Source: a virus. From it: a DNA stretch of 29,924 nucleotides. Below the pieces are notes generated by a model that ran no database searches, was not told the DNA's origin, and saw only the letters and a program-made list of their open reading frames with translations. The stretch covers positions 1 through 29,924 of the IMG/VR virus record IMGVR_UViG_3300027980_000085. One strand, given 5' to 3'. A program made the position numbers and the translations under genes. Below, in pieces: positions 4,054 to 25,728 of this stretch (positions within the stretch are counted from its first letter, which is position 1; the number at the start of each line of letters is the position of its first letter).

Positions 4054-4329
4054 ATGAATAATACACCAGAAAAGAGTAGTGAGGAGAAGTTGGTAGAGGA
4101 GAAGTTTACCGACCAATATTTAATGGGAAGACGCGGTTATAACAATTTACTTAGGGAGGACATAGTACAAGCCCTCAAACAAACAAAAGCAGACACCATA
4201 CAGGAGGTGAGGGATTGGGCTGAAGAGAATGTAGAATATGCAAAGAACGCTAGAGAGTTTATGGAGAGAAGTAAACACAATGAACTCCTTACAAAATTAG
4301 AGGTTTTCCTCACAAGTATAGAGAAGTAG
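4054..4329 (+). CDS. 91-residue helical hypothetical protein
   Basis: This is the last gene of the tightly packed array, starting two bases after the previous stop. It is almost entirely charged helix (SSEEKLVEEKF, REDIVQALKQ, IQEVRDWAEENVEYA, a C-terminal LTKLEVFL helix), with an ARG-GY loop after residue 25. No motif indicates activity. An extended -10 promoter for the downstream small RNA begins three bases after its stop. Confidence 0.72.
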   Translation: MNNTPEKSSEEKLVEEKFTDQYLMGRRGYNNLLREDIVQALKQTKADTIQEVRDWAEENVEYAKNAREFMERSKHNELLTKLEVFLTSIEK

Positions 4330-4331
4330 CG

Positions 4332-4340
4332 TGCTATACT
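4332..4340 (+). promoter_or_regulatory. Extended -10 promoter for the small RNA
   Basis: TG at 4332-4333, one base, then TATACT at 4335-4340 makes an extended -10 element directly behind the last gene of the array. I see no convincing -35 hexamer, which extended -10 promoters can do without. Predicted start is about 4347, exactly where the first hairpin of the RNA begins. Confidence 0.55.
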
Positions 4341-4346
4341 ATAAGA

Positions 4347-4456
4347 GTCGCAAGGCATTTCGCTACCTTATGACAAACAGAAAGGATGGTGATCCTTTTC
4401 TAACCGTCAGGCTAACCCCCTGACATGGAGCAGATTAAAACCCTGCTCCTTTTTTT
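4347..4456 (+). ncRNA. Candidate phage small RNA with four hairpins and intrinsic terminator
   Basis: About 110 bases between a promoter and a rho-independent terminator fold into four consecutive stems. H1 pairs GTCG 4347-4350 and AAGG 4352-4355 with CCTT 4366-4369 and TGAC 4371-4374. H2 pairs AAAGGAT 4381-4387 with ATCCTTT 4392-4398 (loop GGTG). H3 pairs GTCAGG 4406-4411 with CCTGAC 4419-4424 (loop CTAACCC). H4 is the terminator stem. A 17-codon ORF at 4370-4423 exists but overlaps the stems. Promoter, compact fold and terminator together suggest an independent non-coding RNA expressed from the end of the early block. I do not recognise an Rfam class; its target or protein partner is unknown. 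Confidence 0.6.
4427..4456 (+). terminator. Rho-independent terminator of the small RNA
   Basis: GGAGCAG (4427-4433) pairs perfectly with CTGCTCC (4443-4449) around a nine-base loop and is followed at once by seven T (4450-4456), a textbook intrinsic terminator on the + strand. Confidence 0.85.
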
Positions 4457-4458
4457 AG

Positions 4459-4467
4459 TGCTACAAT
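4459..4467 (+). promoter_or_regulatory. Extended -10 promoter for gene 4490
   Basis: TG-C-TACAAT at 4459-4467 lies two bases after the terminator U-tract. The predicted transcript would start near 4474 and carry AGGAG at 4479-4483, six bases before the ATG at 4490. This is the only strong Shine-Dalgarno I see in the window. Confidence 0.5.
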
Positions 4468-4489
4468 AAAATACAGAAAGGAGAATGCC

Positions 4490-4678
4490 ATGACCATTGT
4501 AAAAAAACTTGCAGATCATCTGGATATGACTGAATATGAGCTTTTTGAACTTGCTGCAAAAGCAAGCGAGGGTTCTCAGTTTATCAATGTCGTTACTGAC
4601 TACACGCTCTACGTGCGCCGCGGATTCATTCCCACGTATGTCTATGGGTATGATCGGAAGGTCAGATGCGCCGCATAG
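4490..4678 (+). CDS. 62-residue hypothetical protein, possible HTH-like
   Basis: This gene has its own promoter and a clear AGGAG ribosome-binding site, unlike its neighbours. That suggests separate and efficient expression. The N-terminal half (VKKLADHLDMTEYELFELAAKASEG) has the spacing of two short helices with a turn, as in small helix-turn-helix or Arc-like proteins. The second half is beta-rich and aromatic (DYTLYVRRGF, TYVYGY) with a basic end. It could be a small regulator, but no family is recognised. The stop overlaps the next small ORF. Confidence 0.65.
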   Translation: MTIVKKLADHLDMTEYELFELAAKASEGSQFINVVTDYTLYVRRGFIPTYVYGYDRKVRCAA

Positions 4679-4734
4679 GCATTGCTATTGTTGTGATCAT
4701 TTATGCACTTCTATGGTTCCTACGTAATAAATAG
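4666..4734 (+). CDS. 22-residue single-pass membrane micropeptide
   Basis: An ATG inside the end of the previous gene opens a 22-codon ORF ending at TAG 4732-4734. It has two arginines, then a hydrophobic run of about 15 residues (IGIAIVVIIYALLWF) and a basic tail (RNK), an ideal short transmembrane helix. The terminator stem overlaps its last codons. Such peptides in phages can inhibit host membrane proteins or modulate lysis; nothing here shows which. It could be chance, but the composition is markedly non-random. Confidence 0.45.
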   Translation: MRRIGIAIVVIIYALLWFLRNK

Positions 4735-4747: not shown

Positions 4748-4871
4748 TGCTACTATAAATAAGGCAAACTCCTGTGTACTTACCATAACTGTATGTAAAT
4801 TCGCTTGTGTTAAATCTTTTGTTTAGATCTCCAACCCCAAGTACACGTAAAAACTCCCCGGAAGGGGAGTT
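4748..4871 (+). ncRNA. Possible second structured RNA in the convergent intergenic region
   Basis: An extended -10-like TG-C-TACTAT (4748-4756) could start a transcript near 4763. Downstream, GTGTACTT (4774-4781) is perfectly complementary to AAGTACAC (4839-4846), enclosing a hairpin at 4780-4798 (TTAC-c-ATA with TATGTAA, loop ACTG) and an AU-rich region. The 4852-4871 hairpin would close it. No coding sequence is visible. The fold may instead just be an artefact of AT-rich intergenic DNA. Confidence 0.35.
4848..4871 (-). terminator. Terminator of the late (minus) operon
   Basis: Read on the minus strand, AACTCCCC (4871-4864) pairs with GGGGAGTT (4859-4852) around TTCC and runs directly into a T-tract, about ten bases after the stop of the last lysis gene. 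On the + strand it lacks a T-tract, so it mainly serves the minus strand. Confidence 0.75.
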
Positions 4872-4880
4872 GCCATTTAC

Positions 4881-11257: not shown

Positions 11258-12118
11258 TTATGCGTTATAGAAACTTGTAATTGATTGGGTCGGTGGAGTA
11301 AGTGCATCAACCTCAATAGTACCTGCAGTATATGTGTACCCATATCCATCAGTGCGCATTAGTCCATCAATAAGAACAAACAAAGGCTCATTCGATACTG
11401 TGTATGTGGTATTAGATCCATCAACAACTCCAACCGGAGTCTCCTTTGCGAATCCAGCACTTGTTGCTGATACAGTGTATCCTCCATCAGATTTTTGAGT
11501 AAGTGTTACGTTGCTCCCGGCAGTTAATGACGGTACTCCGGATCCACTGAGATATCTTCCTCCTTTTGCTTCACCAATCTGGCTTGCAAGCACCCGGAGG
11601 TTATCAGCAAGTCCTGGAATATCTTCAATAGTTAGCAGCCTCCTATCTTTTATAAGATCAACAACATCTTTTGGATCAAGCTCTTCTGCATCCTTTCCAT
11701 CCTCCGGAGTAGGAATAAGCTCAAGTACTTCAGATGCAATGTATTTAATATCTTCATCTGTAAAATAATCGACACCCCGGATCGGTGTCTCACCGTCTTT
11801 TGGTTTAGGGATCTGACTCAGAACATTGTTCACTATCAAATCAATATCCTCTTTTACAAAGTAATCCACACCCTTGATCGGCTTGTAAAATGGATCTCCA
11901 CGCTCTCCTTTCTCTCCCTTGGGACCTTGAGGTCCACGCTGTATTTTTTCTATTCTCTCTAACTCTGAAAGGGCTTTGTTAAGCGCGATTTCAGTGTTTT
12001 TCTTTACTAAATTAAGTTGCTGTACGAGACGTACCACTTCATTTAAACCACCAAGATTAACCCCCTGCTGTCGCGGTACACGTATAGGAGATCGTACTGG
12101 TTTTTTAGGAGGTAGCAT
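11258..12118 (-). CDS. Tail fibre with collagen-like stalk
   Basis: The 286-residue protein has a basic N-terminus, a coiled coil at about residues 24-60, and a short collagen-like segment (GPQGPKGEKGERGDP, 62-76). Two copies of an R/K-GVDYF-x3-DI motif follow (82-92 and 114-124), then further helical hairpins. The C-terminal beta domain is of the receptor-binding type, with the TYTVSNEPLFVLIDGLM pattern common at phage fibre tips. Collagen-like stalks in phage fibres form trimers. No signal peptide is present, unlike the next gene. It is probably the stem or adaptor for the larger fibre at 9043-11256, to which it is joined by a TAA-T-ATG junction. Confidence 0.78.
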   Translation of the reverse strand: MLPPKKPVRSPIRVPRQQGVNLGGLNEVVRLVQQLNLVKKNTEIALNKALSELERIEKIQRGPQGPKGEKGERGDPFYKPIKGVDYFVKEDIDLIVNNVLSQIPKPKDGETPIRGVDYFTDEDIKYIASEVLELIPTPEDGKDAEELDPKDVVDLIKDRRLLTIEDIPGLADNLRVLASQIGEAKGGRYLSGSGVPSLTAGSNVTLTQKSDGGYTVSATSAGFAKETPVGVVDGSNTTYTVSNEPLFVLIDGLMRTDGYGYTYTAGTIEVDALTPPTQSITSFYNA

Positions 12119-12119
12119 A

Positions 12120-12148
12120 TTGACTTTCTTACCTAACGTGCATAGTAT
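12120..12148 (+). promoter_or_regulatory. Sigma70-type promoter for the inverted gene 12155
   Basis: TTGACT (12120-12125), a 17-base spacer and TAGTAT (12143-12148) form one of the best promoters in the window, on the strand opposite to the late operon. Only six bases lie between the -10 box and the ATG, predicting leaderless mRNA. The spacer shares CTAACGTGC with the promoter before 2153. Confidence 0.6.
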
Positions 12149-12154
12149 GTGTAC

Positions 12155-12286
12155 ATGACAGCAATACTTAACATCATAGGAATCCTATTTATTATAACAG
12201 GTTTAGTCGCTCTAGCTATAGTATTTCCACCAATGTGGATACTATATGCATTAGCAATGGGAGCATTTTTACTAAACCTTGGATAG
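12155..12286 (+). CDS. 43-residue double-span membrane protein on the opposite strand
   Basis: This small gene lies on the + strand in the middle of a long minus-strand operon and exactly fills the space between two minus-strand genes (the next minus stop is at 12289). It encodes 43 residues that are almost all hydrophobic, with probable membrane helices at about 4-23 (ILNIIGILFIITGLVALAIV) and 26-42. The PP at 25-26 breaks them. It has its own strong promoter six bases upstream. Independent control suggests expression at a different time from the virion genes, for example early superinfection exclusion or lysis timing, but no family is recognised. Confidence 0.62.
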   Translation: MTAILNIIGILFIITGLVALAIVFPPMWILYALAMGAFLLNLG

Positions 12287-12288
12287 TA

Positions 12289-12489
12289 CTATCGTCTGAA
12301 GTGAGGTTCGTAACTCTCCATTATTTCTTCTGTAGTATCAAGCGCAGACTCGAGAAGTTTTCCTTGTGGAGCTTTTCCTTCTTTTGCTATACGCTCTAGC
12401 ACCTCTAAGAATAGAGGGTTGTGGGGTCTTCTTCGCGCGAGGAACTTTGCATATTCCTCAGCTTCTTTTGTTCCGTTCATTATAGCCAT
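12289..12489 (-). CDS. 66-residue hypothetical protein
   Basis: The small helical protein opens MAIMNGTKEAEEYAKFLARRRPHNPLF and ends basic (HFRR). It could start at either of two ATGs (12489 or 12480). Located between the large internal virion protein and the fibre genes, it may be a minor virion or assembly protein. The sequence is charged, with no membrane segment. It starts 17 bases after the upstream stop with no Shine-Dalgarno. Confidence 0.65.
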   Translation of the reverse strand: MAIMNGTKEAEEYAKFLARRRPHNPLFLEVLERIAKEGKAPQGKLLESALDTTEEIMESYEPHFRR

Positions 12490-12506
12490 ACTACGTACAT
12501 GGTAAC

Positions 12507-15440
12507 TTAATAATACTCTTCAGGCAATAGGCCTGTTTTTTGATCTGCATACGCTCGATCCTTAGGTCTTAGGTATCCAGGCTCACCAGGTTTTATCAAT
12601 TCTCCTTGTGCATTGCGCATCTGTGGACCAAAGTTTACCCATGAGTTTTGACCTCTGGTCTCAGTGGTCATTGCCTTGCGAGCCTCTGGAGAGAACATCT
12701 GAGAGTGAATGCGCCATGCATTTTCTTCTCCAAGTGCTCCAAAATTATTACCCATCTTTGCGTGACCAAACATGTCATGCACTCCTCTGAAGAGATCGTT
12801 ATACTTTAGGTTTACTCCATCTACGATGATTCCAGTCTCTTTTAGTAGAGGATGTGAGGCACTTACACCACTTCCAAATCCTTCATCAGTGAGGAAGAAA
12901 TATAGATGTTTATTGTCAGCAATATCTTTTACAACAGCTTCGCTGTTTGGATATGGTTGTCCCTTGCCCTTCCAAGGCTCTATCTTATATCCCTTTGATA
13001 CCAACCACTCGTACTGCTCCTTGGTTTCCTTTGCAAGTGCATCGTATGCTTTAACAACCTTTGGATCAGTTGGATTGTCCGGCATACGCTCAAATGCATC
13101 AGCAATTTTCTTACCTTGCTCCTTATCTATATAGAATGTGAGATTGTTTTCGATCTCCGGCATTCCCTTTGATTGTGCAAAATCATTAGCGAGTTTGCGT
13201 ACTGCAGGATTATCCCGGTTGAAGAATTTTACTGACTCCAGGATCTGCTCGATCTCTGTATCTGTAAGTTTTTGTACTCCAGTTCCTCCTGTGTCTATAG
13301 CCTTACCAATCTCGGCATCCCAATATGAATCCTGGTTGTTGAGTTTTGCAATACGCTCTGATACTGCTCTGTTTTGAGTTGATACGTTTATGTCAAGAGA
13401 CACCTGACCATTCGGCATCTTAAATACCCCATACTTCACTTCGTCAGGGTACTTATCAAATATGTATGCTTTCTCAGATAGGAACTCTGCGATCCTCTCA
13501 GGTGTCGCATCAGCAGCTGCAATATTCTGACTTCGTAGTGTAGCTACTGCATCGGTACCGGTCCATTTAGTTCCATCAGCATTTAATGTTTCACCAAATA
13601 TCTTACCGGAAACAATGTCATCGATTTGTGTACGAAGCTCTGTTGCAACCTCCGCAGTTTTAGGAGCTGCAGCTCCGTTAGCTTTTGGGAGGGTTTCATC
13701 AGCATTTTCTCTTATAATCGCCTGAAGTCCTTTAATTAAAGCAGCTTCATCTTCAAGCTCTATAAGTTTATTGATTTTTTTCAGATTCTTAGAAAGTACA
13801 CTTTCAATATCAATAGCATTCATTGTTTTAAGACCAACATTGCTTGGCAACATCCGAGCAAGAAATCCTGAAATAGTATTGAATGTTAATACATTCACAA
13901 GATCAGCAAGTCCTCTTGCTGCTTTTTCCAGCACCCCACGCTTCTTAACCTTTTGATACAAAGCATTCACTCGCTCTTCTAGTTTTTGAGTGAGTCTACG
14001 TGTTGAAATAAGATCACTGAGTTTTGAGTCGAGTGTTCTTGCAACATCAGTATCAAGCGTTTCTCGTACAGTGTTTTTTACCCCCTTTCTTGTATTTTCA
14101 TACGCCTGTGCGTTGATACTTGTAAGAGGATCTCCATTTGTTTTACTAAATGCTTTCTGTCCAAATTCTTGGTTATACTCGATAGCTAGATCGTTTAGCT
14201 CTCTCCTACTTATATTTCCTGCAGCAAATCGTTCACTGAGATTTTCAATCCTTGCTGCATTTGGAGCATCATTTGTTTTTGTGTACAACTCAGAAAGATG
14301 GTTTATTGCATCTTCAACAAAATTTTGTGTAACTGTTTTTTCACCCACCTTTGTGGTCACAATAAGATCTTCAGGGTTCAGCCGACCAAGCCGGGTGTCA
14401 GCTTCATCAAGATATGTTCCAAGTTCATCTGAAATTGCACTAACACGATCTTTAATTCGTGCGTTTAGATCTTCATATGTTTTAACACCAGTTGTATCAA
14501 TATCAGTAAGAGCACGCTTTGCTTGCTCAATATCTTTTGGTTTCCCTTGTACAATCTTTCCTGTTATTTCTTTTATTTTTTCTTTTGCCTTCTCTAACCG
14601 TGCGATTCTCGACTGAGCAGCAATGTCTGCAGCAGCTTCTCCAACCTGTCCGGCAACTTTCTTAGTAGTGTCAACCGCAACATCTGTTGCTTCTCCTGCC
14701 ATTCGTACAGCTGGCGCAGCTTTCTCTAGCACCGCTCCTGCTGCATCAGCAGTAGCTTTTGCAGTAGCACGTGAAACTCCAGGAGCTATTTTTATTCCCA
14801 TTGCATCTAGCAGGAACTGTGCATAATCCCCGGCTGTTTGAAGGTTAGATGCAGCTTCAGGATTCTTTTCTGCAAAGTCATTGAATCCTTGAACCATGCT
14901 TTTTACAGCATCTGTATCTACTAGGGTTTCTGCTCCTGCCTGTACTGCACCTCCAATCATCTTCTCCTGCTCTGGAGTAAGTGTTGCTTTTACGACTCCA
15001 AGTCCTGCCTGGAAGATAGAATCAGCAAGTGTTGCAAGAGTCGCACCTCCTACATCAAGTGCATTTGCGGCCATCTCAAGAGGCTGTGTTCCACCTTCAG
15101 CACGCCTTGCAATGTTTCCCCCTATTCGATCTGTACGCCTGTTAAAACCTTCAACAATATTTTCTCCTACCTCTGCAAAATCATTTCCAAGATCACCCAA
15201 CCTACCTCCTATATCCTGAGGTCTTGTCCCCATAACTTCCCCAGCTTTATCAAAGAATCCTCCACCCTGCTCAGGCACAGCAGAAGGCTCAGGAGTAGGA
15301 ACAACAACAGGCATTGTCACCTGTGACTTGTATTGAGGATATTTGGTAGTAATCTTATTCACCAAATCCATATCACTCATACTGTCGTATGAGCCTGGAT
15401 ACTTCTCTCTTATTTTTGCAGCAAATTGTTCTGGAGTCAT
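12507..15440 (-). CDS. Giant internal virion (ejection-type) protein with conserved HDxFGH C-terminal domain
   Basis: The 977-residue protein opens with MTPEQFAAKIREKYPGSYDSM, an N-terminal motif I associate with phage internal or ejected virion proteins. It continues with a region of alternating Ala-rich helices and amphipathic segments (about 90-260), then long helical and mixed domains. The C-terminal part, about residues 790-977, is a conserved phage domain with FFLTDEGFGSGVS, HDMFGH (888-893), GEENAW (904-909) and GQNSWVNFGP (930-939). The His/Glu arrangement suggests a metal- or substrate-binding site, but catalysis is not established. In podoviruses such proteins are ejected with DNA and form a channel. 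It is joined to the upstream gene by TAA-T-ATG. Confidence 0.75.
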   Translation of the reverse strand: MTPEQFAAKIREKYPGSYDSMSDMDLVNKITTKYPQYKSQVTMPVVVPTPEPSAVPEQGGGFFDKAGEVMGTRPQDIGGRLGDLGNDFAEVGENIVEGFNRRTDRIGGNIARRAEGGTQPLEMAANALDVGGATLATLADSIFQAGLGVVKATLTPEQEKMIGGAVQAGAETLVDTDAVKSMVQGFNDFAEKNPEAASNLQTAGDYAQFLLDAMGIKIAPGVSRATAKATADAAGAVLEKAAPAVRMAGEATDVAVDTTKKVAGQVGEAAADIAAQSRIARLEKAKEKIKEITGKIVQGKPKDIEQAKRALTDIDTTGVKTYEDLNARIKDRVSAISDELGTYLDEADTRLGRLNPEDLIVTTKVGEKTVTQNFVEDAINHLSELYTKTNDAPNAARIENLSERFAAGNISRRELNDLAIEYNQEFGQKAFSKTNGDPLTSINAQAYENTRKGVKNTVRETLDTDVARTLDSKLSDLISTRRLTQKLEERVNALYQKVKKRGVLEKAARGLADLVNVLTFNTISGFLARMLPSNVGLKTMNAIDIESVLSKNLKKINKLIELEDEAALIKGLQAIIRENADETLPKANGAAAPKTAEVATELRTQIDDIVSGKIFGETLNADGTKWTGTDAVATLRSQNIAAADATPERIAEFLSEKAYIFDKYPDEVKYGVFKMPNGQVSLDINVSTQNRAVSERIAKLNNQDSYWDAEIGKAIDTGGTGVQKLTDTEIEQILESVKFFNRDNPAVRKLANDFAQSKGMPEIENNLTFYIDKEQGKKIADAFERMPDNPTDPKVVKAYDALAKETKEQYEWLVSKGYKIEPWKGKGQPYPNSEAVVKDIADNKHLYFFLTDEGFGSGVSASHPLLKETGIIVDGVNLKYNDLFRGVHDMFGHAKMGNNFGALGEENAWRIHSQMFSPEARKAMTTETRGQNSWVNFGPQMRNAQGELIKPGEPGYLRPKDRAYADQKTGLLPEEYY

Positions 15441-15441
15441 A

Positions 15442-17526
15442 TTATGGTGAATTAATTCCTAATGGATCATTTGCATTAGCAGCAGATTCGTTACTAAATA
15501 TTCCAAGTGGATCTCCACTTTGAGAGTACAGACCAACACGTAGATCTTTATTCAAGAGACTTTCTTTATCGAGTCGAGGCAATAAATATGTGTCTCGGAT
15601 ATTGTTCATGCGCATCAAAGGATCTGACTCAAGCTGAGCTAGCTTCGTCATAAACACATCAGGTCGATCAGATAGATCTGGAATAAGTGGCTCAAGGAAT
15701 CGTGCCTCAGATTCTGTAACCGCAGTACCAGATAGTCTGTTACGCATCTCGGCAACAAGTGTCGTGAATGATGCACGAATCTCTGCAGCTTTCTTTCCCT
15801 TAAAGCGGCGAATCCAGTTTTGCATGGTTCCTGAGACAACTCCAATAGGTTCCTCTCCTCCCATTGCAGTAATTTTTTCTCGAATCTCGTCTGTTTTCTC
15901 TGCTGCGTATCTCACAGATGCCTCACTCATATATATATCACTTTGTTCTTCACGCGCCTTGTCCATTACAAGATTTTCAACACGAGTGATTGCATTTACA
16001 TCCTTACCATCTTCAATAAGTCGTGCAAGTCCAGGCATATCAAAATCAATAAGCCCCTTGCTACTATCTGTGATCGTAAGAAGCACATTGCGCAGATTGT
16101 CCGCAAGATCTTGGTTTCGAGACACGGAATATCCCAATGTTGTATCAAAAATCTCTGCGTATGTTTTACCTTGAGCAATTCCTTGCTTCGCAATACTTTC
16201 AATTCGTTCACTCTCATCATTAGAAATACGGCCTCCGTAAATCTTAGGCCCAACCTGCACAGTAAATAGATTTGCGTCAGTTGGCACTTTATTCCAGTTA
16301 AACTCAAGTGATCCTCCAGACCCACTGCCAGTTCCTACACCACCTGAGCGAGTACTTGTTCCACCATTCTCCATATAGTTAATGTACGCAGCGAGTTGCT
16401 GATCCTCTGGTAGTGCTGCAACAGCAGCTGGAAGATACTGAGGGTAGTTATCTCGGATAGTGAAGAAGTTCTTAGCATCACCTGTAAGTGCTCCAGCACT
16501 TGATGCTCCATTTTCCTTTGCAATATACTCAAGCGTTTCACTAATCTCCTTTGCGGTAAAGTCACTAGGACCATATCCTCCTGCTACTGATGCTTCATTA
16601 AGAGCCTTCATAATTTCAGCAGGATCAGTAATACCTTGCTCCACAAGTCCGGCAATAGCGAAGTCGCGTGTTGCTTGCATCTGCTTTGCCTTAGCATCTT
16701 CAATTTCTTTAGCAAGAGTCTTTGCAAGAGCTTCCTGTACCTTTGCTTTCTCTGCACGCTTTGCATCTACGCGATCAAGCTGCTTTGCAAGCAGTTCAAA
16801 GTTCTGAGCCTCCTGAGCGTTCTTAGCGTTAGCAATCAGCTGTTGCTCCTCTGCCTCAAGTGCAGCAAGTTCCATGATCCCTGCGCGCTCCTGTGCGCTT
16901 GAGATGGATCCTGCAGTGATTGGTGCATAGCGTGAAGTACCTGCCAAAAGTAGTACTTTTTCTACACCTTGCTGCTGTCTTTTATTTATATCCTCCTGTT
17001 GAGACCTCAACACCGCGTACTTATTTTCAATAGATGAAATAATTGACTTTGTCACTCGATCTGATGAAAGTCGCATCTCATTTAGAAGGCCATTGTATTC
17101 ACGATCTTCATCTGACACGCCAGTTACCGGAGATGCAGTAATTCCTGCTTCCTGCAACTGATCAAAGGTATCGTTAAAATCGTACTGTACATCAGGTGCA
17201 TCAGTGTAGTACTCACCATTTGGAGCCACGAAGAATCCAGCAGATGACTGCTTTGATCCTTCAGGTGCCATTCCTTCGATAATCCCCTGTGGATTGCGTT
17301 TCTTCCCCGGCTCTGGAAGAGCATTTGCTCTTGCAGTATTCTCTGGATTTACTTCGTTCCTAATTGTTTCGTCTGTAATAACAGTGGGAGAACTAAATGC
17401 CTCCTGCACACCTTTAAAAGCAGCTTTCTGTTGCGGTGTAAGATCATCAGATGGTCCTACAGCAAAAGCCTCACCAACTGCTGCTGCTGCTTTTGTCTGC
17501 TCTTCTGTAGGTGTCATTGTTGGCAT
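15442..17526 (-). CDS. Large helix-rich internal virion / ejection protein
   Basis: The 694-residue protein is dominated by helix. A coiled coil spans about residues 215-310 (Glu/Lys/Ala/Gln-rich, including AEEQQLIANAKNAQEAQNF) and a Gly/Ser-rich break lies near 390-402. The C-terminal helical region contains RNRLSGTAVTESEARFLEPL, a pattern seen in phage internal proteins. An N-terminal region with a PNGEYYTDAPDVQYDF segment precedes these. Cysteine appears absent. Its position between the nozzle/fibre genes and the giant protein fits a podovirus ejection apparatus. The function is inferred from order and composition. The start follows the previous stop by one base. Confidence 0.68.
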   Translation of the reverse strand: MPTMTPTEEQTKAAAAVGEAFAVGPSDDLTPQQKAAFKGVQEAFSSPTVITDETIRNEVNPENTARANALPEPGKKRNPQGIIEGMAPEGSKQSSAGFFVAPNGEYYTDAPDVQYDFNDTFDQLQEAGITASPVTGVSDEDREYNGLLNEMRLSSDRVTKSIISSIENKYAVLRSQQEDINKRQQQGVEKVLLLAGTSRYAPITAGSISSAQERAGIMELAALEAEEQQLIANAKNAQEAQNFELLAKQLDRVDAKRAEKAKVQEALAKTLAKEIEDAKAKQMQATRDFAIAGLVEQGITDPAEIMKALNEASVAGGYGPSDFTAKEISETLEYIAKENGASSAGALTGDAKNFFTIRDNYPQYLPAAVAALPEDQQLAAYINYMENGGTSTRSGGVGTGSGSGGSLEFNWNKVPTDANLFTVQVGPKIYGGRISNDESERIESIAKQGIAQGKTYAEIFDTTLGYSVSRNQDLADNLRNVLLTITDSSKGLIDFDMPGLARLIEDGKDVNAITRVENLVMDKAREEQSDIYMSEASVRYAAEKTDEIREKITAMGGEEPIGVVSGTMQNWIRRFKGKKAAEIRASFTTLVAEMRNRLSGTAVTESEARFLEPLIPDLSDRPDVFMTKLAQLESDPLMRMNNIRDTYLLPRLDKESLLNKDLRVGLYSQSGDPLGIFSNESAANANDPLGINSP

Positions 17527-17527
17527 A

Positions 17528-18949
17528 TTAGTTTACCTTGAGCATCATATTATTAATCGTACAATTTGCTCCTCCTCCTCCTGAAGTAAGTACACCCTTT
17601 AGGGTTACTGCACTACTAAAGTCTATTGAAGATGTATTTTCTGAGAATGAAGATGCTCCTGCACGAGTAGCATTTGTTATAGAATTCTTACCAGAATTAC
17701 TGTACCCCAGTGTGGTCTGAGAACTTACAGAACTATTGAACAATGTCATAAACTCACCGTTAGCTATATAAGTATTAGTTCCATCCATTGTTCCAAGTCC
17801 AATCCCCCCAAGGGTTACATCTCCACTTGTTTTAAGTGCGAAACTACATTCAGTATCTGCTCCTACGTCTACTCCTGTAATAGAGAATAGTGTTCGGATT
17901 GTAGAACTAGCATGAATAGTTCCTGCAGGAATAAGGAAAGTAGTCGTATCAATACTTCCGTTATTAACCAGAGCATCGGTTGTTGTCGAGAACGTAAGGT
18001 TGACAGGAGGGTAATCTGTACCTGCTACAGCACCACTTACAATTCCACTTGCATCAGTCTTTAGAAGAGATGAAACTGTTCCTGAAATAGTGAGGTTTGT
18101 TGTTGTAGCATTTGTTGCTGTAAGAGAGCCAAATGCGTACTCAAGCGCAGAACTTATCCATCCAATCCCTAAGAATCCATTTGAGTCTGCAATGATTGTA
18201 TGATTTGCAGCTACGTTGTTAGCACCTGGAGTTGAGGTTGCGTGCTCTGCAGTAAGTGCATAGGCAAGATTTGCAGTGTTCGCAGTACCTGCTGCTTGCT
18301 CTGCTGCAGTAGCAAGCTCTACGATACCGGATACTGATTCAGTTGAAGTAGCAGCACCTTGGTTTACTACGTTGTCTACATAGTCCTTACGACAATATTC
18401 TTCTGCTGAAGAACAGTTGCTTGTAGATGTCGCGTTTGATGAGAATCCCCATGTACCAGTGATCCACTCGTTGCTCCTTCGCTTTGTGTACTCATCAAAA
18501 AGCTGAGGTGAGTCAGATAGGATGAAGATAGATTGTCCGGGATGTGCCTTACGATATGTAGCAGATGCAGCATATGGATACTGGAATCCAAGACCTCGAG
18601 TCACACCTGTAAGAGTCGCAGTACCATTAGCATTTTGTGTAATACCAGTGAAGGAGATAAACTCCTTACGAGTTGAAGATTGTGGATCAAGCGTACCGTA
18701 TCCAATATCTGAGCCAAGAGTGCTCATCGTGATGTTTGTTTCAGAAATAGGCTCTTTAAATGAAGAGAGTGTAATACTGGTGTTTGTTGTACCAATAGAG
18801 CTTTGTAGGCGGTATGTACCTCCAGCTGCAGGATTAAATCCTCCAAGCACGACAAGTCCATCATTTTGTGGTGCAATAAAATTGTGATATGCACCAATCC
18901 CCCCAAGGGTTACAGCAGCAGCGATTAGTATAGAGAAGAGAAATTTCAT
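17528..18949 (-). CDS. Signal-peptide-bearing virion or surface fibre protein
   Basis: The 473-residue protein begins with a Sec signal or anchor (MKFLFSILIAAAVTLGGIGA) and then a Thr/Ser/Gly/Asn-rich beta region. Features include a GIVELATAAEQAAGT segment (about 210-224), a classic phage tail-fibre motif, and repeated small strands such as TNATTTNLTISGTV. Four cysteines (SNCSSAEEYC, DTECSF, GANCTI) are consistent with disulfides after export. It lies in the virion cluster between the nozzle and internal proteins, where a non-exported tail protein would be expected. A TATAAT lies eight bases before the ATG. Confidence 0.68.
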   Translation of the reverse strand: MKFLFSILIAAAVTLGGIGAYHNFIAPQNDGLVVLGGFNPAAGGTYRLQSSIGTTNTSITLSSFKEPISETNITMSTLGSDIGYGTLDPQSSTRKEFISFTGITQNANGTATLTGVTRGLGFQYPYAASATYRKAHPGQSIFILSDSPQLFDEYTKRRSNEWITGTWGFSSNATSTSNCSSAEEYCRKDYVDNVVNQGAATSTESVSGIVELATAAEQAAGTANTANLAYALTAEHATSTPGANNVAANHTIIADSNGFLGIGWISSALEYAFGSLTATNATTTNLTISGTVSSLLKTDASGIVSGAVAGTDYPPVNLTFSTTTDALVNNGSIDTTTFLIPAGTIHASSTIRTLFSITGVDVGADTECSFALKTSGDVTLGGIGLGTMDGTNTYIANGEFMTLFNSSVSSQTTLGYSNSGKNSITNATRAGASSFSENTSSIDFSSAVTLKGVLTSGGGGANCTINNMMLKVN

Positions 18950-18957
18950 ATGATTAA

Positions 18958-18963
18958 ATTATA
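18958..18963 (-). promoter_or_regulatory. -10 box close to the start of 17528-18949
   Basis: A perfect TATAAT (minus strand 18963-18958) sits eight bases before the ATG, with TG immediately upstream. The geometry matches the promoter-like boxes before the holin and the terminase small subunit. No -35 is clear. Confidence 0.45.
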
Positions 18964-18965
18964 CA

Positions 18966-20831
18966 TTACTTTTTGATAAATACAGGCTTTGTCTGTGTGT
19001 TTTGTACATTCGGACCGATTGCTAAGATCTCCCATCGGCTATTTGCTTCACTTGAGAAAACTCGAAGTTGTGACTCAAAAGCATTCTGAGCGTTTATTGT
19101 TCCTATTGCTCTAAACTTCGGCAGCAACTCCTGCTCAAGTTCCTCATCAGTAGTTTTATCCCCAAGCGGATTATCTCCAAGTGATGCGTCTCCAAGTGAG
19201 ATACCCACGTCACCTGTGAAGAGCTGTGTTGGATTGTCAATGCTATTAATGGTCACAAGCTGGACTGTATTAGATCCTTGGTACTCAAACACCACTGCGC
19301 TTTGCAGGTCTGATCCAGCAGCAATATACCCTTCGTAATACACCTTATCGAAGGTGTGATATTCCCCCCTCTTGCCATACTGCTGGTATGCGAGAGCAAG
19401 TACTGAGTCATATGGAATATCCTCATCAGAAGGTGAGTCATCGTGCCATTGTAGTGTGTTCCACATCTGGTACAGCTGAGGATTTGCATTACTGTGGCCA
19501 TATTCTACCCCTGAAATCAGGGCAATTCGTGCAATATTCCAGATAAATGGTGAGTGCCATATTCGTTCCTGAGTGATGTTTCCAAGCGCATTTACACGTG
19601 TACGAGTCTCATGTAGCCATACACGACCATTGTTTGGGGCTGTAATGTATACAAAATCACCAATGGCACGCAAATGACCCCCTGTTACATCCTCATTTGC
19701 CAATTCTTCTTTAATTCCTTCGGATAAAGTAGGGAATTGAGGCTGATTTATGTTTCTGAAGGTACCGAATACCGTTAATTGCTGATCTGCAGACAAATAC
19801 ACAATATCATCGCCCACATTGTCAATAAATTCATGTGCTTTCGCACCTTTAAGTCCAGCCATTGGTATTTTCTGCACATTTGACCTCTCAGTAAGTGTAG
19901 ATCCTACTGTTATTTGATCAAATGACACGACATACCACGAATCAAGCGTGGAGATATGTGCTTTACCTTGCCTAGAGGCGATACCGGTTGGTATTTCATC
20001 AAGTGTAAGTAAATCAGCATCTCCAGGTACACGCGGAGAGGCCGGTGTGAAGTCTGTGTAGTCAGCATCATCAGATATATAAATCAATCGAGAGCTATCT
20101 GAACCACAATATAGTTGGTTATTAATAACCTTAATAAAATCAATTTCAAAATTAGCAGCTGGTGTGTCAGAAACAATATCTGGCTTATCAATAACCACTG
20201 ATCCATCTGCCTCCCCGGTAGGGTCAGAACCAACACCCGTTAGTGTGGATGCTGATGTTCCTGTATACGTATATTCAGTACCATTAATAATCACTGTCCC
20301 TCCACTAGATCTAAATCCAAGAGAAGCCGCTGTTGCGGTAAGAGCGATAGTATTAGAGGTTGAGTTTCCCTGATCAAAGATTCCTAGTGCTCCACTCCAG
20401 GTACGCAAGTCATCTGCACCATCGCACATAATAAGTAGGTCTTTTTTCGCAGTATTGTCCCACCATGGGGCAAAATTGAATCGTGTGCGAGTAAGAGAGT
20501 CAAGAAGCGTATACCATACATATGTGCCGTTTTCTGCAATGTCACTTTCTACTTGCAGCTCTCCATTCACAACACGCAAAGGCCGAGTGAATCCAAGTGA
20601 CATCACCCACTCGAATGACGATTTGATCCCTGCTTCTGTTGCATCTGCAGCACCACGCCTTTTTAGTCCAGGGCGGTTTGCAATCGTACCTGAATCTTTT
20701 ACATATACATTTTTTGATCCCCGGACCATCAGCCTTCCGGATGCAATGGTCTTGTCTATAGCAGAAGAGTAACCTTTAAAAGGCCTTTTATCTCCTCCTA
20801 CAAGATTTTTGAAATCAAAGTTACTAATCAT
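18966..20831 (-). CDS. Tail nozzle / tail tube B-like protein
   Basis: The 621-residue beta-rich protein starts with a motif shared by podovirus nozzle proteins (T7 gp12-like): NVYVKDSGTIANRPGLKRRG at about residues 41-60. This is followed by alternating strands with WVMSLGFTRPLRVV and other blade-like repeats, and two Cys in unrelated positions (IMCDG, LYCGS). It lies immediately downstream of, and overlaps by 8 bases, the adaptor-like gene, as tail tube A and B genes do in T7-like phages. It probably forms the distal tube that contacts the host surface and channels DNA. The family assignment rests on motif and gene order. Confidence 0.7.
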   Translation of the reverse strand: MISNFDFKNLVGGDKRPFKGYSSAIDKTIASGRLMVRGSKNVYVKDSGTIANRPGLKRRGAADATEAGIKSSFEWVMSLGFTRPLRVVNGELQVESDIAENGTYVWYTLLDSLTRTRFNFAPWWDNTAKKDLLIMCDGADDLRTWSGALGIFDQGNSTSNTIALTATAASLGFRSSGGTVIINGTEYTYTGTSASTLTGVGSDPTGEADGSVVIDKPDIVSDTPAANFEIDFIKVINNQLYCGSDSSRLIYISDDADYTDFTPASPRVPGDADLLTLDEIPTGIASRQGKAHISTLDSWYVVSFDQITVGSTLTERSNVQKIPMAGLKGAKAHEFIDNVGDDIVYLSADQQLTVFGTFRNINQPQFPTLSEGIKEELANEDVTGGHLRAIGDFVYITAPNNGRVWLHETRTRVNALGNITQERIWHSPFIWNIARIALISGVEYGHSNANPQLYQMWNTLQWHDDSPSDEDIPYDSVLALAYQQYGKRGEYHTFDKVYYEGYIAAGSDLQSAVVFEYQGSNTVQLVTINSIDNPTQLFTGDVGISLGDASLGDNPLGDKTTDEELEQELLPKFRAIGTINAQNAFESQLRVFSSEANSRWEILAIGPNVQNTQTKPVFIKK

Positions 20832-21981
20832 ACCAACTATCTAATGTGCGTATTTCAGCACTTGGATTTGAAGATTCGTATTCCGGGATAAGACCCATTT
20901 GGCTACCTCCTCCGTACAATACCGTTTCCAGATCTTTTACTTTCGGATCTTTTCCACTTGCTCCATCCTGCATAACGATTTCTAGTGCTGCTAGATTTTC
21001 ATAAATCACGTATGCAGCATCGTTAAGCACAATCTCGTCATCATCATCGGTAATTGTCTTAGACAATGCGCCATCATTTAGGAAGATTGCTGCAGTCTCA
21101 TAAATTAATTCGTATGGAGTTGGAAGCGATAGCCATAGTCCCCCAACATACACATTCTGGATTGTTGCAGTATGTGCAAATTGAAGTTGTACATAATCAA
21201 TTGCGGTCCAGTCTGGAGTTCCTGTTGAAGTTGCTCCTGACATATCGAAGGCCACAAGTACCCACTCTCCCGCCTTCCATGCTCCAAGAAATCCTTCTGT
21301 TACTGCTACTGAATCGTAGTTTGAGCTATCTGACCCTATAAGAAGTGTTGCAGAAGTAAGATCTGCAACAGCTGATGCTCTGAAGGCCAGGAGTGCTACT
21401 GCGTTATTCTCATACTTTGCAATAGAAAGAGCATTTGTAAGTGTTTTGGTTAGGGTTCCAGTTGAAGATCCTGTAAGTGTAAACCGTAGTGACTTTGGAG
21501 AGTCATAGAATACAGTGTCATCTTCAGTAAGAGCACTCGCACTTCCTGCAGCTGTCCACCCTGTATCTTCAGCCATGGTGTCTAGTACCGCGCGCTTTGT
21601 TGGTGCTGCACTTGAAACACGAAGGATCGGAGTACCTTTGTCATACTCAAACGTAAGACCAACACCTGATCCAAGCATTTTCTTGGTGCGATCAAATGTA
21701 GTGATAGGAATTTTGTACGGATAGTTGATCGGACTACGAGAATTACCTTGTGGCCTAAAGTCCAGCAAGGTTGTGCCAAATATATTTGTAGGTGCAGCGT
21801 AATCGAATACACCATCATAGAGAGTAATTGCCTGAACAGCGGTAGCCTCTGGAATACTTAGTTTTGTAAGCAGTTTTCGAGCAGTACGCTCGAGTGCGCC
21901 ATTGACATTGGTAACATTATCAAGGTTAGTACTCGAGAGTATTCCTGCCACTCCGTCTTTTAAGTTTCCTACTGTATACAT
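20824..21981 (-). CDS. Head-to-tail adaptor (tail tube A-like) with inserted beta-sandwich
   Basis: The 385-residue protein combines an N-terminal helical/mixed part (about 1-130; LERTARKLLTKLSIPEA) and a C-terminal helical part (about 287-385; PYELIYETAAIFLNDG) that together resemble podovirus adaptor/tubular A proteins. Between them, about residues 132-286, lies a jelly-roll-like beta-sandwich with carbohydrate-binding-module character (DSPKSLRFTLTGSSTGT, GEWVLVAFDMSGA, TIQNVYVGGLWLS). Such an insertion in an adaptor is unusual and may decorate the tail base or bind glycans. The gene lies just before the nozzle gene and overlaps it. Confidence 0.65.
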   Translation of the reverse strand: MYTVGNLKDGVAGILSSTNLDNVTNVNGALERTARKLLTKLSIPEATAVQAITLYDGVFDYAAPTNIFGTTLLDFRPQGNSRSPINYPYKIPITTFDRTKKMLGSGVGLTFEYDKGTPILRVSSAAPTKRAVLDTMAEDTGWTAAGSASALTEDDTVFYDSPKSLRFTLTGSSTGTLTKTLTNALSIAKYENNAVALLAFRASAVADLTSATLLIGSDSSNYDSVAVTEGFLGAWKAGEWVLVAFDMSGATSTGTPDWTAIDYVQLQFAHTATIQNVYVGGLWLSLPTPYELIYETAAIFLNDGALSKTITDDDDEIVLNDAAYVIYENLAALEIVMQDGASGKDPKVKDLETVLYGGGSQMGLIPEYESSNPSAEIRTLDSWYD

Positions 21982-21984
21982 AGG

Positions 21985-22407
21985 CTAGTAAAGACATTCA
22001 GTAATAAGAACAGTTGTCGTTGCGTTTGCGGTAATTCCAGTTACCGCTCCGGTATATGGAAGATCTGTATTAAGCCCAAATGCAATTGATGGACTTGATG
22101 AAGCAATAAGCACTCCGCTTCCTGTAGCTGCAGCGGCTCCTTCATCAAATGATAGGTAGAATTCATCAGTTGCGTTTGCAGGAATTTCGATCTGCGCCCA
22201 TGCGCGATTTGCAGCTGCACTAAGAAGTGAAGATGAGATGTCATCCCCGATTGCTACATTTGAAGAAGTTGTGACATTGCAAGAGCTTGAGTACTTTCCT
22301 CCTTGTAGTGCCACATCTTTTTGTCCATCACCTTTTATTACAAATACATATCCAAGTATTGCAACAATCAAAAGTGGTAGAAGTATTGATAGTGAGAGTT
22401 TATTCAT
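21985..22407 (-). CDS. Small exported or anchored virion-region protein
   Basis: The 140-residue protein begins with a strong hydrophobic N-terminal segment (MNKLSLSILLPLLIVAILGYVFVI), either a signal peptide or an anchor. The remainder is Ser/Thr/Ala-rich beta structure (SNVAIGDDISSSLL, FGLNTDLPYTGAVTG) with exactly two Cys, one just after the leader (SSSCNV) and one near the C-terminus (ITECLY), suited to a disulfide. It sits between the capsid and adaptor genes. The function is unknown. The upstream 70-base gap contains two small hairpins. Confidence 0.62.
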   Translation of the reverse strand: MNKLSLSILLPLLIVAILGYVFVIKGDGQKDVALQGGKYSSSCNVTTSSNVAIGDDISSSLLSAAANRAWAQIEIPANATDEFYLSFDEGAAAATGSGVLIASSSPSIAFGLNTDLPYTGAVTGITANATTTVLITECLY

Positions 22408-22428
22408 ATTTTAATGTTACCAGTAAGA

Positions 22429-22463
22429 GGGCTACCTGCCCTATCCCAATCCCCAGAAGGGGA
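22429..22463 (-). other. Two short hairpins in the gap upstream of 21985-22407
   Basis: TCCCC (22450-22454) pairs with GGGGA (22459-22463) and GGGC (22429-22432) pairs with GCCC (22438-22441), making two small consecutive stems in a 70-base gap between two exported-protein genes. No T-tract follows on the minus strand. They could be weak terminators or mRNA processing sites. Confidence 0.35.
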
Positions 22464-22476
22464 CTGAGTAGAACAA

Positions 22477-22899
22477 TTAGATCCCTGCCGGACAAGTAAC
22501 GCTTTTAGACGTTAATGTTCCATTAAGGGCTACAGTCTCAGTACATCCAGCACCATCGTGATCCTCAAGGATCAATCGGCCTCCTACAGAAGCTGCTCCT
22601 GAAGAGATCGCTGCTGTTGAAGTTGCTGAAGCGTCTTCTACATGAAGAAGCTCTGAAGGTGAGGTTGTACCAATACCTACGTCTCCGGTGAATGATCCTG
22701 TACTTGAAGTAACAGGAGCATCCAAGTTTCCAGAACCATCGATTACGGTAGTTCCATCCACTGCATATCCATCAGTTGTATCCAACAGATCGAAGTTTGT
22801 TGTTCCTCCCAACATTCCTGCAGGTGACGGAACAATCCATGTGGCGATGATTGCTATTAACGCAATCATTCCTGCCCATTCTTTGATTTGTTTAATCAT
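22477..22899 (-). CDS. Small exported fibre-like protein with VGIGT motif
   Basis: The 140-residue protein begins with a membrane or signal segment (MIKQIKEWAGMIALIAIIATWIV). A fibre-type region follows, containing GDVGIGTTSPSELLHVED, the same motif repeated five times in the 737-residue fibre, and ends in a small beta unit. Two cysteines in the C-terminal unit (GAGCTE and VTCPAG) could pair. It sits directly after the major capsid gene. It may be a small fibre or decoration element, or a secreted host-surface protein. Confidence 0.62.
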   Translation of the reverse strand: MIKQIKEWAGMIALIAIIATWIVPSPAGMLGGTTNFDLLDTTDGYAVDGTTVIDGSGNLDAPVTSSTGSFTGDVGIGTTSPSELLHVEDASATSTAAISSGAASVGGRLILEDHDGAGCTETVALNGTLTSKSVTCPAGI

Positions 22900-22926
22900 A
22901 GTGGTTGATTGCGATTACGTTAATAA

Positions 22927-23868
22927 CTAAGCACCTGTTGATCCAACAAGTCCTGAGTACTCAATTGAGTCTACCTCTTCTCGAGCACGCATCTTGTACT
23001 TGTAGTGATCGTTGTCATCTGTTTTCCAGTCTACTAGATCAGTGAAGAAAGCCTCTCGCTCAAAGCGCATGATTCCATGTCCTGCTGATCCTACGAAGTA
23101 GGCAGTACTTGAAGTGTCATCTAGGAACTGATTGTATTTCACAATCATTCCAGGATATAGCTCTGAGTAGTAGTTTAGATCATTGTTTCCAGTTCCTGAT
23201 CGAAGTACAGACTTTGTGATCTGCATAGCATCCTTGTGAAGTACGTTAGGTACTAGAAGGAAGTCAGGCTCATATCCAACCTTTACACCAACCTGGTTCT
23301 TCTGATTTCGTAGAGAAACAATAGTTGAGTTAAGTGTTGAATCTGCTAGAGCACCTGTCTCTAGGTTGTCTACAGTATCTCCGTTCTCATTTTCGTGAGA
23401 GTTTGAGAATACTACGACATTGTCAATAGTCTGCTGAGTTGAGAATCCATTTGCATATACTGCAAAAGCATTCTGGTCCCGGCTCGCAGCCCAAGATTGA
23501 ACTTGCTGACGTACAGCTCGAGAAACAGCATTCTGCTGCTGATCGGCCATAAATGTACGTGTAATAGGAAGGTTCTTCTTGAACTCTGCGATAAGAGTTG
23601 TCTTAGGACTTGGAGAACTTGGTGCTACGTTCTTAGCTGGAGAAGCATCATCGATACTCTTTTCAAAGTATCCACCTCCTCCGATAACTGAGGTAACAAC
23701 AGCCGCATTGTCTGCTCCTGCTTGTGTGAACACAACAGGGTCAAGCGCAGTTGCTTTACCAACTCGAGCCTCCTTCATCATTTGATCATCCTTGATCTTG
23801 TCCAGAGCTGTTTTTACCAACTCGAGATTTGGACTCGCGTCACGGTTTAAACCATATACATTACTCAT
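22927..23868 (-). CDS. Major capsid protein
   Basis: The 313-residue protein, with no cysteine, is in the right place (after scaffold and decoration genes) and has the mixed alpha/beta composition of HK97-fold capsid proteins. It contains an N-terminal arm, a central PDFLLVPNVLHKDAMQI stretch (about 200-215) and a C-terminal segment with FFTDLVDWKTDDNDHYKYKM. Those stretches recall the Mu gpT-like capsid group, although I cannot check similarity. Its leader shares TTAATC(A)CTAAAAC with the preceding decoration gene, in keeping with high expression. It is self-assembling in the prohead and guided by the product of 24408-25043. Confidence 0.8.
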   Translation of the reverse strand: MSNVYGLNRDASPNLELVKTALDKIKDDQMMKEARVGKATALDPVVFTQAGADNAAVVTSVIGGGGYFEKSIDDASPAKNVAPSSPSPKTTLIAEFKKNLPITRTFMADQQQNAVSRAVRQQVQSWAASRDQNAFAVYANGFSTQQTIDNVVVFSNSHENENGDTVDNLETGALADSTLNSTIVSLRNQKNQVGVKVGYEPDFLLVPNVLHKDAMQITKSVLRSGTGNNDLNYYSELYPGMIVKYNQFLDDTSSTAYFVGSAGHGIMRFEREAFFTDLVDWKTDDNDHYKYKMRAREEVDSIEYSGLVGSTGA

Positions 23869-23895
23869 AATGTTTTAGTGATTAATTAATAAAGA

Positions 23896-24366
23896 TTACT
23901 CGAAGTAGATACCAGTTGCTGATACTACGAAGTAAAGCACATCCTCCTCTGGCTGACCGCCAACAATCACTACTGTGTTTGTGGCTCCATCGGCTGCTGC
24001 TGAATCAATTGTCCAGGTTGTAGAAGTAAGATCGAAAACTACACGCTTACCTTGAAGCGCGTCAATCTCAGCCTGTGTATCGGCTGCTCCTGCTACTTTT
24101 GGACTTCCCTTGTATACGATTCCAGGTAGCGGATTGATTGTATATACAATTCCGTTTGCTGAAGCTGTATCAGTTGATACGCTTTTAGCAAGACCTGTAA
24201 ATCGCTCTGAAGTAGTACCTTCACCGTCTGCCATGATGGCTACGGCTCCGTTACTTCCCTGCTTTGTAGGAGTACCGCGAGCAATTGTCGCTGCACCTCC
24301 TGATTCCACAATTCTGCGTGTACTAGACACCGCATCAAGTGGGTTTACAACACTGAAAGTTTTCAT
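23896..24366 (-). CDS. Probable head decoration/stabilisation protein
   Basis: The 156-residue protein is mostly beta strands and small residues (SGGAATIARGTPTKQGSNGAV, GTTSERFTGLAKSVST). Its spacing resembles phage head decoration or stabilising proteins, and it lies directly between the scaffold-like and capsid genes. No cysteine is present. No enzyme motif is seen. The leader before the ATG shares a motif with the capsid gene. Confidence 0.6.
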   Translation of the reverse strand: MKTFSVVNPLDAVSSTRRIVESGGAATIARGTPTKQGSNGAVAIMADGEGTTSERFTGLAKSVSTDTASANGIVYTINPLPGIVYKGSPKVAGAADTQAEIDALQGKRVVFDLTSTTWTIDSAAADGATNTVVIVGGQPEEDVLYFVVSATGIYFE

Positions 24367-24407
24367 TGCGTTTTAGGATTAAGTAGTAATCCTTCACAAT
24401 GAGTTAC

Positions 24408-25043
24408 CTATTCTCCGCGAGCCTTTAGAATATCTTCTTTTGTAAGATTAAACGGAGGTCGCATGAGCGATGCTTCTTGTGGTGATGGCTCAAATACTCC
24501 TTCTGGAGATGGTGCCGGATTACCGGGAGCACTATCGTGCTGGTTGATCTTGATTGCTTCTTTACGAGCAATCTCCTCAATTACCATCCCATTTCGTACT
24601 GAGTTCACCGCAAGTCGCGCAAGGCGTACATCTTCTTCTGCATCACCTGAAGGTACGATTCGTTCCAAGTACTGAAGAGTGAGCTTTCGCTCCTTCTCAT
24701 CCTGGATACTGCTGGCAATATCAACTGACTTCTTGCGTGCGCTCTCCACGTTAAACTTTTTCAAGTCTCCACGCGTAAGAGGTGCAGCATCATCAGCATC
24801 ATCGTCAGTATCCTCATCCTCGACACCAAGTTCGGCAAGTTGTTCCTCTACACGCTTTTTTGTATATAGGAGCTTGTCTTTCTTAGATCGTTTCTGAGTA
24901 TTACTTTCGTTCCTTTTGAGTTCTGCATCAATAGGATCTTCATTTTGTGAAGGTGCAGATGAATTATCTTCATCCTTTGGTGCATCTGCTCCAGGTGCAT
25001 CTGCTTCCTCGTTCTTTATATCTGGATTTTTTTCTTCATTCAT
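24408..25043 (-). CDS. Scaffolding protein (candidate)
   Basis: The 211-residue protein is highly charged. It has a disordered acidic N-terminus with repeated Ala-Asp-Pro, a central acidic DEDTDDDADDAA stretch, a long helical part (LKKFNVESARKKS, DEKERKLTLQYLERIV) and a Pro-rich C-terminal tail with a short basic end. This composition and the position directly upstream of the decoration and capsid genes are typical of phage scaffolding proteins, which are removed or released after capsid assembly. No protease motif is present. Confidence 0.7.
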   Translation of the reverse strand: MNEEKNPDIKNEEADAPGADAPKDEDNSSAPSQNEDPIDAELKRNESNTQKRSKKDKLLYTKKRVEEQLAELGVEDEDTDDDADDAAPLTRGDLKKFNVESARKKSVDIASSIQDEKERKLTLQYLERIVPSGDAEEDVRLARLAVNSVRNGMVIEEIARKEAIKINQHDSAPGNPAPSPEGVFEPSPQEASLMRPPFNLTKEDILKARGE

Positions 25044-25101
25044 AGTCGTTTTTATGGCAAACGGTGCCTTATAAGTAATCTACCTAGGGGGTAGTTCCCG
25101 T

Positions 25102-25491
25102 TTATTGTTCCAAATCTTCCTGCCCAGCAAGCAGCTTGAGGAGATCATCCTCCTGCTGTCCCCACCATATTGCCGCTTTCGCAAAATATAGCTCATCTAT
25201 ATCTTTTGATTTATGCACACCCATTGTCACCGCCTTGTATGCAACTTGTGATTTTACAAGATTGCGCACCTGCGAGTTCAGAGCAGCGCGAGCACTATCG
25301 CGGAGCTGGATAGTTTTTTCGTGATCTAAAGGAACATTATTAACGAGAAGCCTTCCTTCTTCGTTAAGAGTAATAATATCACGCGTTGGTATTGCATACA
25401 ATTTATCAAGTATCGCATTTGTTAATAGCATGCGATCTTTCTTTGATAAATTACTGCGCTTCAGTAACCAAGTTGTGAGTTTTACGATCAT
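25102..25491 (-). CDS. 129-residue hypothetical head-region protein
   Basis: The gene overlaps the previous one in TAATG fashion. The protein has an N-terminal helical hairpin (WLLKRSNLSKKDRMLLTNAILDKL), an extended strand region (TRDIITLNEEGRLLVNNV) and a C-terminal amphipathic helix with a WWGQQEDD motif. The layout is common in small proteins of phage head modules, but I do not recognise a family. It is probably involved in capsid assembly or portal contact, by location only. Confidence 0.65.
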   Translation of the reverse strand: MIVKLTTWLLKRSNLSKKDRMLLTNAILDKLYAIPTRDIITLNEEGRLLVNNVPLDHEKTIQLRDSARAALNSQVRNLVKSQVAYKAVTMGVHKSKDIDELYFAKAAIWWGQQEDDLLKLLAGQEDLEQ

Positions 25492-25697
25492 TATTCTTTA
25501 TCTTCCTTCTCCTTCTTAGCCTCCTTCTTAGCCTTTGGCTCTGCCTCTACTTGATCAATAACAAGTCCAGCATATCCAACGTACTTTTCTCGTACAGCCT
25601 CATCTGTAACCTTTGCTCCTTCATCCTGCAGAGCTTTGATAGCTCGCGCAAGTTTCTCTTTATTTACTGCCCAAGGGTAGTTATCCATAGTTTTCAT
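25491..25697 (-). CDS. 68-residue hypothetical protein with KE-rich tail
   Basis: The short protein consists of a small helical domain (VNKEKLARAIKALQDEGAKVTDEAVREKYVG) and a low-complexity C-terminus of about 18 residues rich in K and E (KAKKEAKKEKEDKE). It could begin at either of two ATGs, 25697 or 25688; no Shine-Dalgarno precedes them. It has its own leader with a strong hairpin (25729-25753). The role is unknown; it lies between the portal and head genes. Confidence 0.6.
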   Translation of the reverse strand: MKTMDNYPWAVNKEKLARAIKALQDEGAKVTDEAVREKYVGYAGLVIDQVEAEPKAKKEAKKEKEDKE

Positions 25698-25728
25698 TAC
25701 TAACTTTTAATTTTTGGCTTGTAGCCAC

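Follow-up and report, generated by a model that had tools for sequence, protein, structure and literature searches.

A candidate phage small RNA with complementarity to helix 70 of 23S rRNA

Phages produce short regulatory RNAs, exemplified by the OOP RNA of phage lambda, which possess their own promoter and terminator, are located between phage genes, and act on mRNAs or proteins. In archaea, C/D-box guide RNAs are small RNAs harboring an antisense element directed against rRNA. Phage proteins acting on host ribosomes are also known. To our knowledge, no phage RNA is known to pair with the ribosome's own RNA core, and neither phage RNAs directed against rRNA nor rRNA mimics in phages were found in the open-access literature searched. 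Association of the ribosomal subunits, as well as contacts with tRNA and with the recycling factor, requires the helix/loop 70 region of 23S rRNA (PMC5408214). This region is cleaved by MazF-mt3 and MazF-mt6, the latter enzyme cutting it when the 50S subunit is free and leaving it uncut in 70S, and MazF-mt3 also cleaves the anti-Shine-Dalgarno sequence of 16S rRNA (PMC5408214).

The locus described here is located in a 29,924-nt stretch of DNA from a phage of uncultured microbes; this stretch, a fragment of a virus record, is referred to as the window. Its predicted RNA resembles phage regulatory small RNAs in layout but differs from them in that its best match is rRNA. In comparison to archaeal C/D-box guides, inspection revealed no C/D box pair around the antisense element, and the promoter and terminator are of the bacterial type. 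The likeness to MazF-mt3 and MazF-mt6 is a target analogy only, since these nuclease proteins act at the same rRNA places, including the 16S anti-Shine-Dalgarno sequence in the case of MazF-mt3 (PMC5408214). We propose, with a probability of about 0.5, that the product of this stand-alone gene most likely acts by base-pairing with helix 70 of 23S rRNA, the predicted RNA resembling anti-helix-70 elements scattered in other viral contigs.

Promoter, fold, and terminator of the small-RNA unit

The late genes of the phage, the terminase gene (29292) being the first and a lysis-type gene (4881) the last, are borne by the minus strand, and the early genes, including a helicase gene, by the plus strand, the last one ending at position 4329. 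The small-RNA locus is located between these two sets of genes. A second virus record, L004/G003, is 100% identical to positions 11534 to 29924 of the window and also contains positions 1 to 123, in addition to 7.6 kb missing from the window; it does not contain the 4.3-kb region. This overlap and the additional 7.6 kb show that the genome is circular or permuted, with a size of about 37.5 kb. The large terminase is of the phrog_38 type, and the nearest terminases in genome collections were found in an Ignavibacteriae MAG (57%) and in Pacearchaeota and Patescibacteria MAGs (42–46%). Upstream of the terminase genes, this phage (L015:6290-7810, 506 aa) and a relative (L013:13601-15133, 510 aa) encode a GroEL-like chaperonin, a label assigned from reading the sequence. 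The relative also harbors two very stable multi-stem noncoding stretches (L013:1338-1480 and L013:13222-13392; z-scores of -6.2 and -8.1), one located 3' of the lysis gene and the other ahead of a promoter-terminator unit and groEL.

An extended -10 promoter-like site, TGCTATACT (4332–4340, plus strand), starts 3 bases past the stop codon of ORF 4054-4329 and places the predicted transcription start at about position 4347. This site, which the original prediction had reported, was confirmed in the sequence and is the sole exact match to TGNTATAMT on the plus strand of the window; no good -35 sequence was found upstream from it. Four plus-strand hairpins are predicted in the following 110 nt. 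H1 (4347–4374) is a weak hairpin consisting of 4 + 4 bp flanking a C-A mismatch and of a 10-nt loop, CATTTCGCTA (4356–4365), predicted to be unpaired. H2 (4380–4399) contains 8 bp, and H3 (4406–4424) contains 6 bp and a C-rich loop. H4 and a run of seven T form an intrinsic terminator (4427–4456) with a 7-bp stem at 4427–4449, T7 at 4450–4456, and a stability of -11.7 kcal/mol. Folding and shuffling thereby confirmed the four hairpins, the 7-bp terminator with T7, and the length of 110 nt between genes that had been predicted. H1, described as an 8- to 9-bp hairpin, has 8 pairs with a mismatch, and H2, described as a 7-bp hairpin, has 8 pairs.

The predicted fold of positions 4347 to 4456 (-34.8 kcal/mol, z-score of -4.38) was equaled by none of 200 shuffled sequences. 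Ranked by stability against window segments of equal length, H2, H3, and H4 were among the best 1.4%, 0.9%, and 0.1%, respectively, and H1 was ordinary (14%). An extended -10 sequence followed by a strong terminator within 60 to 160 nt occurred once in the window and in one of 60 dinucleotide-shuffled windows. A stand-alone small-RNA gene, whose putative transcript of about 110 nt would start at about 4347 and end at about 4456, is supported by these features.

A possible 17-codon ORF (MTNRKDGDPFLTVRLTP; 4370–4423, plus strand) inside the RNA bears solely on a different explanation, according to which the locus would be an attenuator leader of ORF 4490-4678 and a ribosome translating the 17-codon ORF would block the terminator. 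The ORF ends 3 bases ahead of H4, as this explanation would have it, but it has no good Shine-Dalgarno sequence, and folding revealed no antiterminator structure competing with H4, on which basis a riboswitch or attenuator leader was rejected. In addition, ORF 4490-4678 has its own extended -10, TGCTACAAT (4459–4467, plus strand), past the terminator. An attenuator is thus very unlikely. The latter two observations, together with the promoter-like site and the terminator of the RNA itself, support the initial view that the RNA is autonomous and not a leader.

Comparison of the RNA with Rfam 15 returned sub-threshold chance matches only, no family reaching the gathering threshold, in agreement with the earlier remark that no known class was recognized. 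A packaging RNA of the phi29 type was rejected because the phage has a phrog_38-type terminase instead of the phi29-type packaging ATPase and because Rfam gave no match. A CsrA decoy was dropped since inspection revealed two GGA motifs only, one of them within a stem. No DNA homologue of the region was found in cultured phages, in viral contigs by exact 30-mer search, or in terminase and helicase relatives. ORF 4490 and ORF 3483 had no relatives in viral contigs, and ORF 4054 had none in cultured phages. The short units of relatives L013 and L028 display the same promoter style and terminators and have no sequence in common with the RNA of the window.

The region could also be devoid of function, as a spacer with a terminator at the junction of early and late transcription, the -10 sequence having arisen by chance. 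The early plus-strand genes indeed end, and the late minus-strand genes converge, at this site, and the sequence is conserved in none of the relatives found. Such a spacer is nonetheless highly improbable in view of the exact extended -10, the fold (z-score of -4.4), the rarity of the unit in shuffled windows (1/60), and the 23S complementarity of H1.

The site at 4332 is the first of three promoter-like TGCTAnnnT sites in a row, the second being that of ORF 4490-4678 (4459) and the third, at 4748, that of a second possible small RNA. The latter (4748–4872; TGCTACTAT; z-score of -2.3) has a 9-bp outer stem and a terminator-like hairpin, which may equally well terminate the late operon. A 23S match in this second candidate (4800–4848) was discarded as a long G-U-rich purine-tract alignment. 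A possible 22-aa membrane peptide (MRRIGIAIVVIIYALLWFLRNK; 4666–4734) overlaps the 3' end of ORF 4490-4678, and its stop codon is covered by a terminator-like hairpin.

Complementarity of H1 to 23S rRNA

When related genomes were searched at the DNA level with positions 4330 to 4500 of the window, two short matches to H1 were obtained, both corresponding to 23S rRNA genes. Reverse-complemented, H1 reads TCATAAGGTAGCGAAATGCCTTGCG and matches TCCTAAGGTAGCGAAATTCCTTGTCG, a universal segment of 23S rRNA, and positions 4350 to 4374 of the plus strand are antisense to helix 70 (positions 1957 to 1981 of Neobacillus 23S rRNA), with 22 Watson-Crick pairs, one G-U pair, and two mismatches out of 25. 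This match ranked first when the entire 30-kb window was compared with 16S and 23S rRNA by a sensitive search (E-value of 0.029 for the whole window). The predicted duplex (-36.0 kcal/mol) exceeded those of all 5980 other segments tried, with a net gain of about -21 after opening of both partners, and the loop of H1 was predicted to be unpaired. As helix 70 forms a hairpin (AAGG/CCUU), its complement does so too, and some of the matching positions are therefore not independent of each other; a hand estimate allowing for this brings the probability of a chance match to about 10–3 for the RNA, instead of 10–4.

An ordinary phage regulatory small RNA, pairing for example with phage or host mRNAs, would account for the promoter, the terminator, and the stable fold, which are typical of any small RNA, the match between H1 and 23S rRNA being then coincidental. 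The related phage G002 contains short promoter-terminator units that do not match rRNA. Furthermore, the core AAGGNATTTCGCTACCTT, present at positions 4352 to 4369 of the window, contains a mismatch, C4356, at a position where all 20 of the phage elements described below keep the 23S base and two chance matches do not, so that the window follows the pattern of chance matches. Its flanks resemble 23S rRNA no more than expected by chance (6/14 on the helix-69 side and 2/14 on the other). Against a coincidence, none of 1500 dinucleotide shuffles of the RNA reached the antisense score of H1 against 23S rRNA (G-U allowed), and the matched segment is one repeatedly carried by phage elements of the same polarity. 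We consider an ordinary small RNA to be rather unlikely and favor pairing with helix 70. The protein-sequestering role that had also been suggested received no support; the best evidence favors RNA-RNA pairing.

The 5' arm and loop of H2 (AGAAAGGATGGTGATCC) are similar to an extended Shine-Dalgarno sequence, which is complementary to the 3' end of 16S rRNA. As extended Shine-Dalgarno sequences account for such stretches, this match was considered weak; an equally strong pairing with the 16S tail was obtained for 38 of 5980 segments of the window. In a terminase relative, a 34-nt stretch (L115:1539-1572) is 82% identical to positions 2453 to 2486 of 23S rRNA (Neobacillus numbering) and scores slightly above the window's own match in the same search.

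Anti-helix-70 elements in other viral contigs

The 18-nt core AAGGTAGCGAAATNCCTT, a pattern taken from the window's own match, was searched for in 2.9 million viral contigs, and 24 loci were obtained. These comprised two true 23S rRNA genes (L189 and L198), two chance matches inside ORFs (L181 and L201), and 20 short elements outside rRNA genes (L182 to L188, L190 to L197, L199, L200, and L202 to L204), 16 of which are distinct. In the helix-69-side flank, which is outside the search pattern, 7.4 of 14 bases were 23S-like, compared to 3.6 for random sequences (p = 2 × 10–8). In L188, an 81% likeness to 23S rRNA extends over 53 nt. The opposite flank displayed no likeness to 23S rRNA and often contained an unrelated hairpin. 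In 13 contigs compared with Rfam, the elements were covered by no family, and RNAalifold revealed little covariation because the flanks of the elements do not align. Five elements (L182, L187, L190, L193, and L197) are located on contigs containing several tRNAs, and two (L184 and L194) beside phage head and packaging genes. Eleven (L182, L183, L185, L186, L187, L191, L193, L199, L200, L202, and L203) are compact, each adjoining a terminator, and match, in complement, the part of 23S rRNA that extends from helix 69 across helix 70 to the GGCGUAA segment.

Read antisense to 23S rRNA, 13 of the 16 distinct elements are followed by a strong intrinsic terminator, versus 2 of 16 for the sense strand and 14% for random stretches of the same contigs. 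The tRNA arrays share the antisense direction in L182, L187, L190, and L193, L197 being an exception. In view of the 13 antisense-strand terminators, the RNAs of the elements are likely to be antisense to 23S rRNA, as is the plus-strand RNA of the window, whose promoter-to-terminator direction has the same polarity and which also has a downstream terminator on this strand (H4 and T7, 4427–4456). The 18-nt core and the AAGG/CCUU hairpin with a 10-nt loop are common features as well. In contrast, most elements keep more complement to the helix-69 side of 23S rRNA and perfect identity at the position of C4356, and H2 and H3 are additional in the RNA of the window. The latter departs from 23S rRNA at the N of the core (C4356) and in the helix-69-side flank (6/14), and the claim is therefore that it works like the elements, not that it descends from them. 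The evidence is stronger for the existence of a broader group of phage elements with complementarity to 23S helix 69-70 than for the inclusion of the RNA of the window in this group.

Transcription of the minus strand would lead to a different interpretation, namely an rRNA decoy that imitates both helix 70 of 23S rRNA and the 3' end of 16S rRNA and diverts an enzyme targeting the ribosome, for example a toxin of the MazF type. The minus strand has the more stable predicted fold (-42.1), G-U pairs replacing the C-A mismatches of the plus strand; H2 reads on this strand GGATCACC-A-TCCTTTCT, which is close to the 16S 3' end; and both mimicked places are cleavage sites of MazF-mt3 (PMC5408214). 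However, the promoter and terminator of the window face the opposite way, as do the terminators of 13 of the 16 elements, and inspection of the minus strand revealed no T-run past the last hairpin and no good promoter. The U^UCCU site would moreover be UGCCU in the minus strand of the window, and the 16S-like match is no better than that of the 38 segments mentioned above. A decoy is accordingly quite unlikely in comparison to an RNA antisense to helix 70.

A search for contigs in which the 16S tail precedes helix 70, as in the window, returned none. As for H2 in the window, a 16S 3'-end-like stretch is close to the helix-70 motif in L184 and L194, where both are present within about 100 nt between head or packaging genes (L184:3380-3710 and L194:4990-5100). 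L184 additionally resembles 16S GUCGUAACAAGG and contains repeated TTTTAAGACTTACCTAGGTC-like units.

Proposed action on the 50S subunit

The fold, the complementarity, and the recurrence with the same polarity in other phages were computed; transcription, pairing in the cell, and the effect on the ribosome are inferred. The exposed loop of H1 would make the first contact with 23S rRNA, and the entire hairpin would then pair with the helix 70 segment at the 50S subunit interface. Since this segment is largely buried in the finished 70S ribosome, and since MazF-mt6 cleaves helix/loop 70 in free 50S and not in 70S, the target would most likely be nascent or free 50S, the maturation of which, or its joining to the other subunit, would be hindered. 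Fewer new host ribosomes would be produced, and the existing ones would go on serving the phage.

By extension, many phages, including this one, may produce terminator-ended small RNAs that control the assembly or activity of host ribosomes by pairing with the helix 69-71 core of 23S rRNA, a tentative but plausible generalization. If true, this would reveal a new route of host takeover, based on an RNA that attacks or takes over the ribosome. It would also account for the intergenic phage elements resembling 23S rRNA and would provide a natural antisense tool to reach a universally conserved site of the ribosome.
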